Positions 1,586 to 8,966 of a stretch of 8,966 nt of DNA are shown here, piece after piece. The stretch is from an uncultured Gammaproteobacteria bacterium (lineage in GTDB: Bacteria > Pseudomonadota > Gammaproteobacteria > Pseudomonadales > Azotimanducaceae_A). The DNA lies in the NCBI GenBank assembly GCA_913049565.1, contig CAJWZG010000109.1:1-8966 (forward strand), in the 5' to 3' direction. Both the position numbers and the translations under genes were made by a program. Positions within the stretch are counted from its first letter, which is position 1. The number at the start of each line of letters is the position of its first letter. A model generated the notes under the pieces. It was not told the origin of the DNA, searched no databases, and worked only from the letters and a program-made list of their open reading frames with translations.

Positions 1586-1601
1586 AACAAGCAATGAGTT
1601 G

Positions 1602-2555
1602 ATGGGTATGAACACAATCGAACGAACGACAGCGAACGCGCAAAGACCCACAGATTTTTTCACACCGCAGGAAATCGCTTACTTACGCGAAATTGATCCT
1701 TGGCGAAGCGCTCTAGCCGTCGCGCACTGCTGGGCGGTGATTATTGGTACGTGGATCGTCGTGTGCATGTTTCCCAATCCCATCACAATAACATTGGGCG
1801 TTATGATCATTGGTGCGCGTCAACTGGGGTTGTTTGTGCTCACTCATGACGGTGCTCATGGGGCGCTGTTCAAGAATCGGCAGCTCAACGACTGGGTCTG
1901 CGAATGGCTACTTAACCGGCCATTTACCGACGAAAAAATCGACAACTATCGCAAGTACCATGTGGTGCACCACGCTAACACCCAACAAGAAGATGATCCC
2001 GATTTGGTATTGTCTAAGCCTTTCCCGATTACCAAAAGCTCATTCCGTCGCAAGGTGATTCGCGACCTCACCGGTCAAACTGGCTGGGATCAATATGGGA
2101 GAATCGTAAAAGCCGCATTCAAAGGAGACACTCTGCACGCAAGGCTGCAACGTGCATGGCCGAGGATTGGGCCTAATATTCTAATTAATTTGGTTTTTTT
2201 CTCGGCATTCGCGGCGGCAGGTGTTTGGTACATGTATTTTGTGCTGTGGTTATTGCCGGCGTTTACCTGGAACCGTTTCGTCGTTCGTCTGCGTAACATC
2301 GGCGAACACGCCGTGGTACCCGATAATGATGACCGTCTGCGCAACACTCGGACAACGCTCGCAAGTTGGTGGGAGCGAGCGCTGATCGCCCCATATAACG
2401 TGCAGTACCACCTAGAGCATCACTTGGTGGTGAACTGCCCACACTATAAACTAGCAGACGCGCATCAAATGTTGCTGGATAAAGGCTATCGAGACCAGAT
2501 GGAAATCCAGCCCGGCTACAAGGCCGTGCTAGATCTCGCACTCCGGCACGGCTAA
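1602..2555 (+). CDS. Membrane fatty acid desaturase (FA_desaturase family)
   Basis: This is a di-iron, oxygen-dependent desaturase or hydroxylase of the inner membrane. Counted from the ATG at 1602 (317 aa), the three histidine boxes are intact: HDGAH at 82-86, HVVHH at 120-124 and HLEHH at 270-274. An additional RNIGEHAV segment (His236) fits the iron-binding set of this family. Hydrophobic segments lie at about 37-57, 62-80, 193-206 and 208-221. This gives the usual layout, with the His clusters on one face of the membrane. Candidate starts are TTG 1599, ATG 1602 and ATG 1608; none has a strong Shine-Dalgarno site, and ATG 1602 is chosen over the TTG. The gene follows the CoA-transferase by about 70 nt. 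It ends 4 nt from the convergent redoxin gene, with no terminator between. Substrate (acyl lipid, sphingolipid, carotenoid or other) and regioselectivity cannot be read from sequence. Confidence 0.9.
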   Translation: MGMNTIERTTANAQRPTDFFTPQEIAYLREIDPWRSALAVAHCWAVIIGTWIVVCMFPNPITITLGVMIIGARQLGLFVLTHDGAHGALFKNRQLNDWVCEWLLNRPFTDEKIDNYRKYHVVHHANTQQEDDPDLVLSKPFPITKSSFRRKVIRDLTGQTGWDQYGRIVKAAFKGDTLHARLQRAWPRIGPNILINLVFFSAFAAAGVWYMYFVLWLLPAFTWNRFVVRLRNIGEHAVVPDNDDRLRNTRTTLASWWERALIAPYNVQYHLEHHLVVNCPHYKLADAHQMLLDKGYRDQMEIQPGYKAVLDLALRHG

Positions 2556-2559
2556 TCGA

Positions 2560-3033
2560 TCACTTCTTCAGGCTGTTTAGGTAGGTGATCAGAGTGAGTG
2601 TCTCTGCCGGATCCATACGCCCTACCGGGGCATTGCTGTAGGCAGAGAACATCACCTTACCCTGAGGGTTTAATACGAACTCGCTGGGTTGAATGAAATC
2701 CCGTCGTTCATCCCACCAAGAACCTAACCGATCGCCAATCTCTCGCGTCACCCCATAAGCGACTGGAAAGTTCAATGTTTCGGCCACTTCTTGTGTCTTT
2801 TCCAGTGAGTCCACGGTGCCAGCTACAATGCTGACTCCCTGTGCTGCAAACGCTTCACGGCGTTCTTCGTAGCCGGCTAACAGTCGGCGGCAGTAGGGTC
2901 ACCAGTGACCGCGATAAAACAAGACTAGCGTATAGGGTGTTTCGAGATCTGCGGGTAGGGCGATTGTGTCGCCCTCAACACTAATGAGAGTCATATCCGG
3001 GAATTGATCACCCGAGGTAAGCATCGTGCCCAT
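2560..3033 (-). CDS. Peroxiredoxin-like (AhpC/TSA, redoxin) selenoprotein with in-frame TGA as Sec45
   Basis: Thioredoxin-fold redoxin, probably a cytoplasmic thiol-dependent reductase or peroxidase. One frame runs from ATG 3033 to TGA 2562-2560, 158 codons, broken only by TGA at codon 45 (2901-2899). Around it the protein reads FYRGHW-U-PYCRRLLAGYEE, matching the RGxWCPYCRRQL active site of this family, so TGA stands exactly at the first, catalytic cysteine. Cys48 completes a UxxC pair and is the only cysteine in the protein. Downstream sequence stays in frame to the expected C-terminus (GTVDSLEKT, GKVMFSAYSN, ending LNSLKK). AGGAGA 5 nt before the ATG supports the start. A conventional caller would report only the 84-aa piece after the TGA and miss the active site. 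The gene follows the aminotransferase by 33 nt, probably co-transcribed. Prx-like UxxC selenoproteins are a known marine-bacterial class. The alternative is a chance Cys-to-stop mutation. Confidence 0.82.
2872..2888 (-). promoter_or_regulatory. Candidate bacterial SECIS hairpin just after the Sec TGA
   Basis: Counting the T of TGA as 1, bases 14-17 (GCCG) pair with 27-30 (CGGC). After an A/C mismatch, C19 pairs with G25, leaving the five-base loop UGUUA. The loop has a G at its second position and starts 16 nt after the TGA. As I recall the bSECIS model (short upper stem, G in the first loop bases, loop roughly 16-37 nt downstream), this fits, near the short limit. The stem is only 4-5 bp, so this is supportive rather than decisive. 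Such an element would bind SelB and recruit Sec-tRNA to the TGA. Confidence 0.45.
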
Positions 3034-3038
3034 CGTGG

Positions 3039-3044
3039 TCTCCT
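3039..3044 (-). promoter_or_regulatory. Ribosome binding site of the redoxin selenoprotein
   Basis: AGGAGA on the minus strand lies 5 nt before ATG 3033-3031, within the 33-nt gap after the aminotransferase stop. It decides the start: translation begins well upstream of the internal TGA, so the part before the TGA is a real, translated N-terminus. Confidence 0.7.
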
Positions 3045-3066: not shown

Positions 3067-4233
3067 CTAAGATGTTTCTGCAAATAGCGTATCAAATTGT
3101 CTGCCTTCATTGCTGCCCCGACAACTCTTGATGCAACGGGCGAGAATGGGTAGCCCGTCGCGGATCTGCTCCAGCGTTAAGTGGCCAAAGGCTAGGCGCA
3201 GATAGGGCACATTCTCTCGCTGATAATGGAAACTCTGCCCCGGCAAGAAGTTAACACCCTGCTCGAGCGCCATAGGGCGAAGTGCCTTGGTATCCACGTC
3301 ATGAGGCAACCGCACCCAGATAAACAAGCCACCGACTGGCTCTGACCAAACGCAAATGTCGCCTAACTCGGTCTCTAGCCCGTCGAGGGTTAGATCTCGC
3401 TTTTCTTTCAGTACCGGATTGGTGGCTTTGGCATGTTTTTGAATCCCGTCCTGATAGAACTCGGCGGCAATCGCCGCCGCAAGGTAGTTGCTGCCGGCGT
3501 CGTGACGACGGCCAAGAATTTTTTCGAGCATCGGTGGTCGGGCGTAGATGTAACCCAGCCTCAGTCCGGGGGCTAAAATTTTCGACAGTGAGCATAAATA
3601 GATTTGATTCGGATCGTCATCCAGTGCATAAAAAGCCGGTTCCAAGGGGCCGTCGTAGTGCACGTCTGCGTAGCAGTTGTCTTCAACGATTGGCACACCA
3701 TAGTGCTTAGCCAATTCAATGATTTGCAGCCTGCGCGCTTTGGGCATCACAAAACCGGTTGGGTTTTGGTAAGTCGAGATGGTGTAGATAAATTTTGGCA
3801 GCCGTCTTTCTTTGCTCAGCCTTGCTAGCTCTCGCTCTACTGCATCAGGACACATGCCACCTTCATTCAGCGGTATACCAACCATGTCGTACTTCAGAGA
3901 ACGATAAGCGCTAAGCGTGCCCGGATAGCAAAACTCTTCGACCAGCACCGTGTCACCGTGGTTATCTTGTAGTGCTTCGGCGGTCAAGGTAACCCCCTGC
4001 ATGGAGCCGTTGGTTAGTAACAGATGATTGGGGTCAATCGCGATACCTTCGCGATCTTCTTCCCGCTGAGCCATGGCGGTTCGCATGCCGGTATGACCTA
4101 AGTCGCCTGGATATTGAGTGAGGGCCTCCGCTTGTTCTTCGATCACTTTGCTCGCAGCGGCCTGCAGGGCGGCAACTGGAAATGTTGCTGGGTCAGACCG
4201 GCCGCTACCAAAGTCGTATTTGATTTGAGTCAT
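3067..4233 (-). CDS. PLP-dependent class I/II aminotransferase (LysN/ARO8-like group)
   Basis: Fold-type I PLP enzyme transferring an amino group between an amino acid and a 2-oxo acid in the cytoplasm. Counted from ATG 4233 (388 aa): YQNPTG at 155-160 (Asn157, PLP O3' contact), VEDNCYADV with Asp185 (PLP pyridine nitrogen), SLSKILAPGLRLG with Lys218 (Schiff-base lysine), and YLRLAF with Arg346 (substrate carboxylate). The set resembles 2-aminoadipate or aromatic/branched-chain aminotransferases of the MocR-like catalytic group. There is no N-terminal helix-turn-helix domain, so it is an enzyme rather than a MocR regulator. A GTG at 4260 would add 9 residues; the ATG is preferred because GGGGAG sits 7 nt before it. 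The gene lies 33 nt upstream of the redoxin selenoprotein on the same strand. Substrate unknown. Confidence 0.9.
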   Translation of the reverse strand: MTQIKYDFGSGRSDPATFPVAALQAAASKVIEEQAEALTQYPGDLGHTGMRTAMAQREEDREGIAIDPNHLLLTNGSMQGVTLTAEALQDNHGDTVLVEEFCYPGTLSAYRSLKYDMVGIPLNEGGMCPDAVERELARLSKERRLPKFIYTISTYQNPTGFVMPKARRLQIIELAKHYGVPIVEDNCYADVHYDGPLEPAFYALDDDPNQIYLCSLSKILAPGLRLGYIYARPPMLEKILGRRHDAGSNYLAAAIAAEFYQDGIQKHAKATNPVLKEKRDLTLDGLETELGDICVWSEPVGGLFIWVRLPHDVDTKALRPMALEQGVNFLPGQSFHYQRENVPYLRLAFGHLTLEQIRDGLPILARCIKSCRGSNEGRQFDTLFAETS

Positions 4234-4240
4234 TTGATTT

Positions 4241-4246
4241 CTCCCC
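4241..4246 (-). promoter_or_regulatory. Ribosome binding site selecting ATG 4233 for the aminotransferase
   Basis: GGGGAG on the minus strand stands 7 nt before ATG 4233. The alternative GTG start at 4260 has no comparable site, so the shorter protein is preferred. Confidence 0.6.
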
Positions 4247-4405
4247 GTCGCGTCTACCACATGGCAAACGGTTACTCTGACTCAACCATATCGGATTCTG
4301 CAGGATGCGTAATACGTTTTAGCGCAAATTCGCGGCCATTTGTCGTTGCTTGGTTAGATGTTGAAGTCACGTGCGTTAGCCTGTCGTCCACCGAGTTTTC
4401 AGAGA
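4247..4405. other. Divergent intergenic region
   Basis: This stretch separates the leftward aminotransferase from the rightward DUF1761-like gene and must hold promoters for both if both are expressed. I could not find a convincing -35/-10 pair on either strand. A 54-codon open frame starting ATG 4261 runs through it, but it has no ribosome binding site and no recognisable motif, so I do not call it a gene. Confidence 0.4.
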
Positions 4406-5852: not shown

Positions 5853-8336
5853 CTACCCGCCTACCCTGTCGGCGCTTTTTCCAAGCCGTGGTGCCTGATT
5901 TCGGATTAGCTGAGCTGACGGCGTTTTGCGCTCGTATTTTTCCGCTGGTGTGTTGATGATCTCGAGCAGTTCACCCTGACCTAACCCCGCATTCATGCGC
6001 TCTTGGCTAACGTTGCCGTAGCCGGTAGACCGCTGTTGAGGGTCACGATTGAGCCGACGAATCAAGTTGGCCATTTGTCGTGGATTGGTTTCTTGGCCAT
6101 GCTGAGTGCCGGCGGCTCGACTGATGGATTCGTTCATCAAGGTACCGCCAAGGTCGTTACAGCCTGCGTTAAGACAGGCCTTCACACCTTCGTGGCCCAT
6201 CTTTACCCAGCTGGTTTGAATATTGTCGATCTGTCCATACAGGGCAAGTCGTGCAACTGAGTGCATCAAAATTGCTTCGCGGAATGTCGGGCCTTTGCGC
6301 GCCTTACCCTTGAGATACATAGGCGCTTCCATATGCACAAAGGGCAGGGGAACAAATTCAGTAAAGCCGCCTGTACGTTCTTGCAGCGCTCGCACGCGTA
6401 TAATGTGCCTCGCCCAGTGTTCGAGCTTTTCGACATGTCCGTACATGATCGTAGCCGTGGTTTTGTAGCCCAGCTCGTGGGCGGCTTCCATCACGTCCAA
6501 CCACTGTTGGGTGTTGATCTTATCGGCGCAAATGATGTCACGAACTTCGTCATCTAAAATTTCCGCCGCGGTACCCGGTAACGTGTTTAGTCCTGCATCT
6601 TTGAGTTGCTGCAAATACTCGCTGACATCGAGTTTCAGCGTGGCTGCACCTTGCCAAACTTCCAGCGGCGAGAAGGCGTGCACATGCATATCTGGTTGCG
6701 CTGCTTTAACAGTGCGCACGATATTGATGTAGGTTTCACCTGTGTATTCGGGATGTATGCCGCCCTGCATACATACTTCTGTAGCGCCTCGCTCCCAAGC
6801 CTCGTTGGTGCGTCGTGCAATTTCCTCATCGGACAAATCGTAGGGTCGGCCGCGCAGATTTTCAGACAGCTTGCCTTTCGAGAAGGCACAGAACTGGCAT
6901 TTGAAATAACAAATGTTGGTGTAGTTGATGTTGCGGTTTACAACAAAGCTAACGCTGTTGCCTGAGGTTTTTGCTCGCAACGTGTCGGCTCGTTGCACAA
7001 CAGCACTAAAGTCGTCGCCACGGCTTTGAAACAGACGCACGATCTCCGCTTCAGTGAGGGCTTCACCGGCACTGGCCTTGTCTAAGATGCCACTGACATC
7101 AGCGCTAACATGCCTGGGTGTATTGACGATCGCGTTCATCACATCCGATGGTGGCGCTATCTCTACGTCCCCAGGGCACCAGTCATCAATTCGCGGGAAA
7201 CCCTCTGCATCGATCATCTCGAGCATTCGCACATGTAGGTCTGGGTGCGCCCAGCGGTCAAGGTTGACTGCATAGTCCGGGTACATTGTAAGTCGTTCGG
7301 TTAAAAACTTACCTGCGGCTGCGGTTTCACGTGCCAGTTCATCCAGGTGTGGCCACGGGGCCTCAGGATTTACAAAATCCGGTGTTACTGGTGATACGCC
7401 ACCCCAATCGTTGATACCGGCATGTACGATTTGCGGCAGCACGCCTGGGCTCAAGTTTGGTGGGGCCTGCACGCTCATCGACGGCCCGAAAATCAGCCGC
7501 GCAACGGCAATCGTCCAAAGCAGCTCGTTTAAATCGGGTTCTGGTGCATTCACCATCTTGGTTTCTGGCTTGGCACGGAAATTCTGCACAATGATTTCTT
7601 GCACATGACCGTATTGCTCATGGATCTCGCGAATGGCCAGCAAGCTTTCGATCCGTTCGAGACGGGTCTCACCAATACCGATCAAAATGCCGGTAGTGAA
7701 AGGTACGGCAGCAATACCCGCGTTCGCCAGCGTTTGTAAGCGAACCGCTGGAATTTTATCCGGTGAGCCGTAATGGGGCATACCTTTTTCGCACAATCGC
7801 TCAGAAGCCGACTCGAGCATGATGCCCATCGACGGCGATACAGTCTTTAAGCGCGTTAGTTCCTCAGGCTCTAAGTTGCCCGGATTCAAATGGGGCAGCA
7901 TGCCGGTTTCTTCGAATACCGCTTTTGCGGCGGCAAACAAATAGTCAGTGGTAGATTCGTAACCCATCTCGGCAAGTGCTTCGCGGGCTGCTTTGTAGCG
8001 CAGCTCTGGTTTTTCGCCCAAGGTAAACAACGCCTCTTTGCAGCCCATAGCAGCCCCATGTCGCGCAACCTCCAGTACTTCGTCGATACTCATATAGGGC
8101 GCTATGACTTTGCGGGGTACCTGAGCAAAGGTGCAGTAGTGGCAAACGTCGCGACACAAATGAGTGAGTGGAATAAAAACCTTGCGGGAGTAAGTGACGG
8201 CGTTGCGAAACCCTTGATCACGTAGTTCAGATGCAACATCGGCAAGTGCTTTGGTGTCGGTGAAGTCAGCCAGAGCCAACGCGTTGTCAGAACTCAGTCG
8301 TTGACCCTCGACTAGGCCTTTGAGTACATCTTTCAT
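5853..8336 (-). CDS. fbiC: Fused CofG-CofH 7,8-didemethyl-8-hydroxy-5-deazariboflavin (Fo) synthase
   Basis: Makes the F420 chromophore Fo from tyrosine and 5-amino-6-(D-ribitylamino)uracil, using two radical-SAM centres. The 827-aa protein has a CofG half first and a CofH half second, the same order as actinobacterial FbiC and close to its length. CofG cluster motif: Cys61, Cys65, Cys68 (LCRDVCHYC). CofH cluster motif: Cys476, Cys480, Cys483 (ICYFKCQFC). Other landmarks are NPGNLEPEEL near 151-160, DWGGVSPVTPDFVNPE near 310-325, VCMQGGIHPEYTGETY near 521-536 and NDLGGTLMNESISRAAG near 727-743. Start ATG 8336 overlaps the cofC stop (ATGA) and has GGAGA upstream. The open frame extends to 8480, but that part is only the shadow of cofC. 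Both halves look intact. Confidence 0.95.
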   Translation of the reverse strand: MKDVLKGLVEGQRLSSDNALALADFTDTKALADVASELRDQGFRNAVTYSRKVFIPLTHLCRDVCHYCTFAQVPRKVIAPYMSIDEVLEVARHGAAMGCKEALFTLGEKPELRYKAAREALAEMGYESTTDYLFAAAKAVFEETGMLPHLNPGNLEPEELTRLKTVSPSMGIMLESASERLCEKGMPHYGSPDKIPAVRLQTLANAGIAAVPFTTGILIGIGETRLERIESLLAIREIHEQYGHVQEIIVQNFRAKPETKMVNAPEPDLNELLWTIAVARLIFGPSMSVQAPPNLSPGVLPQIVHAGINDWGGVSPVTPDFVNPEAPWPHLDELARETAAAGKFLTERLTMYPDYAVNLDRWAHPDLHVRMLEMIDAEGFPRIDDWCPGDVEIAPPSDVMNAIVNTPRHVSADVSGILDKASAGEALTEAEIVRLFQSRGDDFSAVVQRADTLRAKTSGNSVSFVVNRNINYTNICYFKCQFCAFSKGKLSENLRGRPYDLSDEEIARRTNEAWERGATEVCMQGGIHPEYTGETYINIVRTVKAAQPDMHVHAFSPLEVWQGAATLKLDVSEYLQQLKDAGLNTLPGTAAEILDDEVRDIICADKINTQQWLDVMEAAHELGYKTTATIMYGHVEKLEHWARHIIRVRALQERTGGFTEFVPLPFVHMEAPMYLKGKARKGPTFREAILMHSVARLALYGQIDNIQTSWVKMGHEGVKACLNAGCNDLGGTLMNESISRAAGTQHGQETNPRQMANLIRRLNRDPQQRSTGYGNVSQERMNAGLGQGELLEIINTPAEKYERKTPSAQLIRNQAPRLGKSADRVGG

Positions 8337-8966
8337 GACTGAATCTCCGATTCTAATTGCCGAATTGCGAGGCGGCGAGCGATACCTGAACGGTGTAGGT
8401 AAGTGGCAGTTTGGCTGCGCGGATCTTCCGCCAAGAGCGATTGCAGGTCGCTCGGTGTGTCGATATCCAGCGCAAAACAACTGCTAGGTATGAGACGCGG
8501 TGTAATGCCGTTGGCAAACGCTGCATCTGCATGGGGTTTGAAACTTTGGCCATCAAAGATGAACTCGATGGCATCGGGCGGACTACAGATCATACCGTTG
8601 GTGCCAATATTCTCTGCATCGGGCAACAGCGTGACCGAGTCGTTGCACTCGATCAGTTCATCAACTTGATCGGTGGTAATACCTGGTACGTCGGCAGGAA
8701 CGATAAACACCCCGTCAGCGGAAAAATGTTCCACAAGATAATCGGCTGCTTGGGTAAGCGCGCCAGCAAGATTGGCATCGGGGCTTTCAGCGAAGCGCTC
8801 GGTGGAAAAAGCTGAGGCCAATACGTCGGCTTCCGCAGCGCGGGAGACGATCAGAATACCTTCTAGTTGCTTGGCTTTGGACAAACAGGTCAGCACATCG
8901 CGAGCCATAGCCAGCATCAGTGATCGACGTTCTTCCTCGTTTAAGACGTTAGCCAGTCGTTGTTTC
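8333..8966 (-). CDS. cofC: CofC/FbiD phospho-acid guanylyltransferase of F420 synthesis, N-terminus beyond the window
   Basis: Activates a three-carbon phospho-acid (2-phospholactate, phosphoenolpyruvate or 3-phosphoglycerate, depending on lineage) with GTP before transfer to Fo. 210 residues are visible. The frame runs open to the window edge, and KQRLANVLNEEERRSLMLAM before the internal Met at 8917 matches the family's K-x-RL and DVL start region. So the true start lies outside, probably about 10-20 residues upstream. Motifs: VPADVPG (metal-binding Asp), NIGTNGMICSPPDAI, SFKPHADAA, and LDIDTPSDL near the C-terminus. These fit the MobA-like nucleotidyltransferase fold. The stop overlaps the fbiC start by ATGA, so the two F420 genes are translationally coupled. 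Which phospho-acid is used cannot be told from these motifs by eye. Confidence 0.9.
   Translation of the reverse strand, partial: KQRLANVLNEEERRSLMLAMARDVLTCLSKAKQLEGILIVSRAAEADVLASAFSTERFAESPDANLAGALTQAADYLVEHFSADGVFIVPADVPGITTDQVDELIECNDSVTLLPDAENIGTNGMICSPPDAIEFIFDGQSFKPHADAAFANGITPRLIPSSCFALDIDTPSDLQSLLAEDPRSQTATYLHRSGIARRLAIRQLESEIQS
8344..8348 (-). promoter_or_regulatory. Ribosome binding site of fbiC inside the cofC 3' end
   Basis: GGAGA on the minus strand, 7 nt before ATG 8336, within the last codons of cofC. Together with the ATGA overlap it fixes the fbiC start and supports translational coupling. Confidence 0.55.

Follow-up and report, generated by a model that had tools for sequence, protein, structure and literature searches.

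Exchange of constraint between two conserved hairpins downstream of the UGA codon in a putative peroxiredoxin-like selenoprotein gene

An 8,966-nucleotide stretch of DNA from an uncultured Gammaproteobacteria bacterium (contig CAJWZG010000109.1 of assembly GCA_913049565.1; hereafter, the window) carries on its minus strand a peroxiredoxin (Prx)-like gene in which the stop codon UGA is very probably read as selenocysteine (Sec) at the active site. More unusual than this reading are two RNA hairpins, H1 and H2, that follow the UGA. Comparison with relatives revealed both hairpins and an exchange of constraint between them. It is fairly probable, judging from the aligned sequences, that the hairpin bound by SelB moved from H1 to H2 and that H1 became a spacer.

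The Prx-like gene and its UGA codon

The coding sequence (2560..3033, minus strand) runs from an ATG at 3033 to a terminal TGA and specifies 157 residues; a Shine-Dalgarno-like AGGAG (3040..3044, minus strand) lies 6 nt before the ATG. This is the open frame with a good ribosome site described in an earlier note, which a model had made from the letters alone. The single in-frame internal TGA, at residue 45 (2899..2901, minus strand), occupies the first Cys position of an RGHW-C-PYC motif. Translation of the window confirmed that Cys48 (2890..2892, minus strand), the second redox residue of the UPYC motif, is intact and is the sole cysteine of the frame, as the same note had claimed. Its warning that standard gene calling would drop the N-terminal third was borne out by the many database copies of about 106 aa.

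With TGA translated as Cys, the product matched the AhpC/TSA domain PF00578 at 73.7 bits (cut-off 26). An AlphaFold model (pLDDT 91.5) placed residue 45 directly before a helix (46-57); in thioredoxin-fold enzymes, the catalytic residue sits just before such a helix. A structure search with this model listed 50 PDB rows, mostly peroxiredoxins with TMq 0.71-0.86. The match to the SelL-related redox protein NF040769 reached 27.2 bits, below its curated cut-off of 120, and the TxxU motif that defines Sec-peroxiredoxin in the available text of PMC1088965 is replaced here by U-P-Y-C. We infer that the product is a peroxiredoxin-like thiol/selenol oxidoreductase with a U45-P-Y-C48 active site, in which U45 and C48 would form a selenenylsulfide pair, as the UxxC motif suggests.

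A scan of species genomes for relatives of the gene gave 138 encoding places, of which the best 80 were kept. The earlier note had proposed looking for homologues with Cys or Sec at the site, and both were found. TGA stood at the U45 codon in the 28 closest loci (57-87% identity), all from proteobacterial metagenome-assembled genomes (MAGs), several of them of marine clades, and Cys (TGC or TGT) in the other 52 (identity 52% or less). At E <= 1e-30, 87 of the 206 genomes in the family of G004 had the gene, and all 88 matches had an internal TGA. One genome of the surveys, G446, has a second Sec-Prx copy (C112:7175-7630, L209), for which two internal TGAs are listed. When a whole order was surveyed, the gene turned up in 14 of 390 genomes, and the codon was TGA in 10 of them and one for Cys in 4; a class-wide search at E <= 1e-25 found the gene in one of 369 genomes, namely G004; in the family of G286, only G286 itself (1/10) has it. 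Pooling all surveys yielded 96 distinct loci, from 94 genomes plus the window. TGA was found at the U45 codon in 96/96 of these clade loci, and the frame downstream of it was conserved in the first 29.

Such a pattern is hardly what would be left by sequencing error, by gene decay or by a TGA that acts as an ordinary stop, the more so as the hairpins described below are under selection, and we regard this explanation as next to impossible. Equally negligible is the idea that TGA is read as tryptophan under code 4. It would account for the protein databases, where 20 of 26 aligned copies have Trp at the site, 2 have Cys and 4 are cut short after it. However, these Trp residues presumably arose where code 4 was applied to TGA in short contigs. 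TGA is the terminal codon of three of the seven window genes examined, the Prx-like gene among them, homologues carry Cys and not Trp at residue 45, and tRNA-Sec(UCA), selA and selB are present in relatives. Both the ordinary-stop and the Trp readings are thereby already contradicted. The Trp-bearing copies (P0002-P0012, P0014, P0016, P0017, P0021, P0024, P0028, P0029, P0031, P0032) read RGHWWPYC, RGYWWPYC or similar and are a trap for homology searches.

The refuting condition named in the earlier note, absence of the sel genes, was examined in relatives of the window, and Sec machinery was detected in most of these carrier genomes. Among the first 28, selB was over cut-off in 21, selA was matched in 21, selD in 23 and tRNA-Sec in 18 (Rfam cut-off), plus G016 and G027 by ARAGORN; selB was over cut-off in 57 of 66 further carriers, giving 78/94 overall. 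In stretches of about 17 kb around selB from six assemblies, a selA match lay just upstream of selB in 6/6 and tRNA-Sec(UCA) within the stretch in 5/6, the exception being G586. In four of the six (G571, G572, G346, G586), selB is on a contig above 1 Mb, G571 being a single contig of 4.3 Mb. In 23 of G001-G028, the open frame that holds the 311-position match to SelD is 695-777 aa long, a length that would be expected of the Ndh-SelD fusions to which the available text of PMC2398784 refers.

One Cys form, L029 (L029:5115), is nested among Sec forms in the protein tree. Neither selA nor selD was matched in its genome, G029, nothing for selB or tRNA-Sec exceeded the cut-off there, and H1 could no longer be seen by eye, so that L029 is an apparent Sec-to-Cys reversion. 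Cys homologues that keep remnant SECIS-like structures (SECIS, Sec insertion sequence) are described in the available text of PMC1794560, whereas none was visible by eye in L029. Because TGA pairs with Cys, machinery is present in relatives, hairpins are conserved after the UGA and a Cys form is nested among Sec forms, insertion of Sec at residue 45, as the earlier note had inferred, is well supported.

Two hairpins after the UGA

The published rule for a bacterial SECIS is one hairpin, with an early G (often GG or GU) in a loop of 3-9 nt, 16-37 nt from the UGA (PMC13188914). A canonical single hairpin is also expected to have an energy at or below -7.5 kcal/mol. In the window, H1 (2872..2888, minus strand; GCCGAC-UGUUA-GCCGGC) agrees with the rule in loop and spacing, its loop UGUUA starting 16 nt after the UGA; its one A.C mismatch is an A-U pair in L134. 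H2 (2848..2865, minus strand; GAACGC-CGUGAA-GCGUUU) has the early G, in a loop whose CGUG start recurs in 66 of the 68 loci with the H2 consensus GARCGC-CGUGNN-GCGUUY (68/96). Its loop starts 39 nt after the UGA, outside the published range; with H1 (17 nt) folded away, the distance would shrink to 22 nt. The codons at H2 are frozen as CGC CGT NNN GCG.

Folding of the 52 nt after the UGA from the window sequence alone gave no signal (z 0.23), so the structure is visible only by comparison, and a scan with Rfam at E up to 5 found nothing in the window. In the first 29 sequences, codons +13 (CGC, 29/29), +14 (CGT, 28/28) and +16 (GCG, 29/29) were invariant, with mixed usage elsewhere. In the 29-row alignment, 95.5% of cells were paired, against 93.4% in shuffles (0/500 reaching). 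H2 was paired at 100%, varying only between G-C and G-U and between A-U and G-U; the three two-sided pair changes were all in H1, and 19/500 shuffles reached three. Relative to synonymous recodings, the stretch that follows the UGA folded better in the Sec loci (28, since one of the 29 was dropped for an N) and did not in the Cys loci, of which 29 out of 52 were used; the p values were 1.4e-5 (33 nt), 3.6e-5 (39), 0.018 (45), 2.4e-6 (51) and 0.002 (60). Outside the hairpins, codons +81 (AAG, 21/22) and +86 (ACC, 19/20) after the UGA were also unusually constant synonymously in the first 29 loci.

A covariance model built from the 29 loci scored the eight new Sec loci of the order-wide survey at 40-81 bits, and none of the 16 Cys loci searched gave a match above 13.7 bits. 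Across 29 genomes, the two-hairpin model gave 28 strong matches (>= 63 bits), all in the Prx gene, and the rest were at or below 23 bits. Four of the weak matches were inspected and rejected: three have no TGA at the UGA place of the model, and in L150 the TGA is out of the open frame. A search by eye for a pseudoknot or kissing between loops 1 and 2 yielded nothing convincing.

Exchange of constraint between two classes of loci

We defined class A by the H2 core CGC-N6-GCG at nt 40-51 after the UGA and class B by its absence, which gave 68/96 loci (window included) and 28/96, respectively. Cutting by the number of H2 pairs instead gave 72/24; the four loci that the core-based cut shifts to class B (L137, L169, L184, L217) all have the loop-1 GU, so class B has no exception to this GU under either cut.

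Compared with synonymous recodings, H1 was paired in excess in both classes (class A, 91.9% versus 63.8%; class B, 88.1% versus 66.5%; 0/500 reaching in each). H2 pairing was in excess in class A (99.5% versus 77.7%, 0/500), where three of its pairs and its position are true by construction beyond the first 29 loci, and not in class B (49.4% versus 51.1%, 394/500). H1 is therefore under selection in both classes and H2 in class A only.

The sequence of H1 tells the other half. In class B it is frozen: codon 4 is CGC in 27/27 loci, codon 6 CTG in 27/27, codon 7 TTA in 27/28 and codon 8 GCC in 19/19 (loci with the commonest amino acid). The Leu-Leu codons are CTG TTA in 27/27 class B loci versus 18/65 in class A, which uses 20 combinations. 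The loop-1 GU is present in 28/28 class B loci, whereas 43 of the 67 readable class A loci are without it (L014, with an N in loop 1, being left out); the first two H1-loop positions hold no G in 30/68 class A loci versus 0/28 in class B. The peak of synonymous conservation lies at codons 4-9 in class B and at codons 13-16 in class A, with the excess on 13, 14 and 16, of which 13 and 16 belong to the definition of the class. A check free of classes gave the same picture: 66 of the 68 loci whose protein has R13, R14 and A16 use exactly CGC CGT NNN GCG, with mixed Arg usage elsewhere. The window is itself a class A locus with an H1 of class B type (A.C mismatch, UGUUA loop). As a separate observation, the H1 pair 18-26, next to the loop-closing pair, is never G-C in class B (A.C 16, U-A 6, U.C 3, others 3); in class A, G-C is commonest there (43/68).

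A protein tree was computed with the hairpin columns left out and rooted by distant Cys homologues; its columns are few, and many of its forks are open. The class B loci lie at the base, as a set that is resolved only in part. One supported clade (97/97) holds 65/68 class A loci, with L023, L214 and L028 outside, and includes three class B loci (L169, L181, L217), all with the loop-1 GU. By parsimony, the class changes 7 times and the loop-1 GU 11 times without L014 (12 with it). All loop-1 GU changes fall on class A branches, which make up 62% of branch length (0.616). When regain was disallowed, 16 losses were counted, 16/16 in class A (0.616^16, about 0.0004 by hand). The strength of the link between H2 and loop-1 drift depends on the method, and only this no-regain count is strong.

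SelB in the two classes

We aligned 72 SelB proteins, from 52 class A and 20 class B genomes, and by eye no C-terminal residue separates the classes. A motif near the C-terminus, RDxxxxGRNxxIExLE, is common to nearly all, a position or two varying; departures occur in G286 (class B) and in G028 and G533 (class A), and G501 is unreadable there. The SelB ends of G500 (class B) and G231 (class A) are near-identical, and these genomes differ in H2. Since the SelB ends are alike across classes, the change of class seems to lie in the mRNA.

A search for formate dehydrogenase in 66 genomes listed no match with an internal TGA (one had TAG) and so yielded no further SECIS for comparison.

Genes around the Prx-like gene

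Upstream on the same strand, after a 33-nt gap, lies a gene for a pyridoxal-phosphate-dependent aminotransferase (class I/II, MocR-like; 3067..4260, minus strand), which adjoins the Prx gene in 11/28 relatives examined (L001, L003-L011, L013). The convergent neighbour is a fatty-acid desaturase gene (1599..2555, plus strand) that also adjoins it in L001-L011 and L013. The F420 cofactor genes cofGH (5853-8480) and cofC (8333-8965), both on the minus strand, are near the selenoprotein gene as well; among close relatives, cofGH is found in L003-L009 and cofC in L004, L005, L006 and L009, some loci ending early.

Discussion

The two classes suggest how the decoding of this UGA, by SelB with tRNA-Sec(UCA), may have changed. 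In the ancestral form (class B), H1 alone would be the SECIS, and SelB would read a GU in the apical loop of H1, at 16 nt from the UGA. Class A would be the derived form, in which H2 would have arisen 23 nt further on and SelB would read the GU of its CGUGNN loop. H1 would have been retained as a stem whose folding takes 17 nt out of the path, bringing the H2 loop effectively to 22 nt from the UGA (39 - 17), and the demand of the RNA would have fixed the protein sequence ERRxAF at H2. We favour a transfer of SelB binding from H1 to H2 because the path to H2 with H1 folded falls inside the published range and because H1 of class B accords with that range and with the loop rule. We also lean, a little more hesitantly, towards the full account, in which the SECIS was relocated from 16 to 39 nt, the old hairpin became a folded spacer and the RNA dictated ERRxAF while the recognition domain of SelB stayed visibly unchanged. 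SelB binding to H2 and the spacer role of H1 are read here from the pattern of conservation.

A rather unlikely alternative is that H1 is the SelB-binding SECIS in all loci and that H2 improves Sec insertion as an accessory stem, by slowing the ribosome or hindering release factor 2, while not binding SelB. The retention of H1 pairing in both classes and the spacing of H1, which unlike that of H2 is inside the published range, agree with it, as does the loop-1 GU in those class A loci that keep it (24/67). However, an H1 still bound by SelB should not lose the early G of its loop in so many class A loci and in no class B locus, an accessory stem has no need of the CGUG start of loop 2, and the alternative leaves unexplained that the loop-1 GU is missing only where H2 exists. 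That last fact also speaks against H2 being an operator in the DNA or a regulatory site in the RNA that has nothing to do with Sec insertion, which we hold to be improbable. The inverted repeat GARCGC-N6-GCGTTY would suit a dimeric regulator, and its 14-base core, with one mismatch allowed, had 84 matches in 29 genomes versus 37 for a reversed control; about one match per genome is the Prx gene itself and the remainder is somewhat above control. Against an operator, H2 stood at the same place after the UGA in 29/29 first loci, which was seen before the classes were drawn, the two-hairpin model had no match above 13.7 bits among the 16 Cys loci scanned, and the one second exact copy inspected (G022, L151) has no TGA 39 nt upstream.

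Several observations weigh against Sec insertion through a relocated hairpin. As to the machinery, G022 shows none of selA, selB, selD and tRNA-Sec and G003 shows selD only (among the first 28), and 16/94 carriers have no selB match over cut-off, a shortfall that gaps in the MAGs could explain. No other selenoprotein gene was found with the two-hairpin model or among formate dehydrogenases. As to the hairpins, the class A loci that keep the loop-1 GU include the window, L196 has a GU in neither loop, L028 has the H2 stem without a GU loop, and part of the H2 pairing follows from the class definition, as said above. The class B loci L137, L169, L184 and L217 form 5 or 6 of the 6 pairs at the H2 place with other letters. 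The link between H2 and loop-1 drift is, moreover, largely that of one clade: an independent-pairs test had only 4 pairs and was not significant, and Fitch losses alone were 4/4 in class A (p = 0.14).

UxxC Prx-like selenoproteins are known from marine bacteria, as the earlier note had stated. In the available texts, a Sargasso Sea survey counts 21 UxxC sequences (PMC1088965) and the Global Ocean Sampling survey 225 sequences of 'Prx-like 1' (pfam00578, UxxC; PMC2398784). The gene studied here shares with that family the UxxC motif, the Prx-like fold assignment, marine bacterial hosts and Cys homologues. The selenoprotein family has thus been in the literature since 2005; the apparent novelty lies in the recoding signal, for those texts speak of the usual bacterial SECIS, with a G in a small apical loop, and of no second hairpin or split into classes. 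The open-licence texts searched, which take in few subscription journals and no figures, gave us no account of a bacterial SECIS with two hairpins or of one that had been relocated. A 2026 review does point to a subset of bacterial selenoprotein genes whose SECIS breaks the one-hairpin model, suggesting distinct classes (PMC13188914), and according to the available text of a tool paper, a model-based program failed to detect at least 40 of the known genes (13.0%) in the paper's test genomes (PMC12013277).

Against the consensus bacterial SECIS (bSECISearch model; PMC13188914), the H2 loop likewise has G at position 2 followed by U; it differs in lying 39 nt from the UGA behind another conserved hairpin, and the H1 loop differs in lacking an early G in 30/68 class A loci. 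The aligned natural series, 28 loci without H2 and 68 with it, shows a recoding rule changing. From it one can see how a signal for recoding that lies within a gene's coding region might shift its place and thereby alter the protein, and it opens to experiment the question of whether SelB can act across an intervening stem from a hairpin at 39 nt. In the SECIS of E. coli fdhF, a single hairpin presents an apical-loop GU that is read by the C-terminal winged helix of SelB, together with a bulged U. The weak or mismatched pair 18-26 near the H1 loop of class B somewhat resembles that bulged U, whereas the Prx gene has two hairpins, of which the distal one carries the frozen loop in class A.
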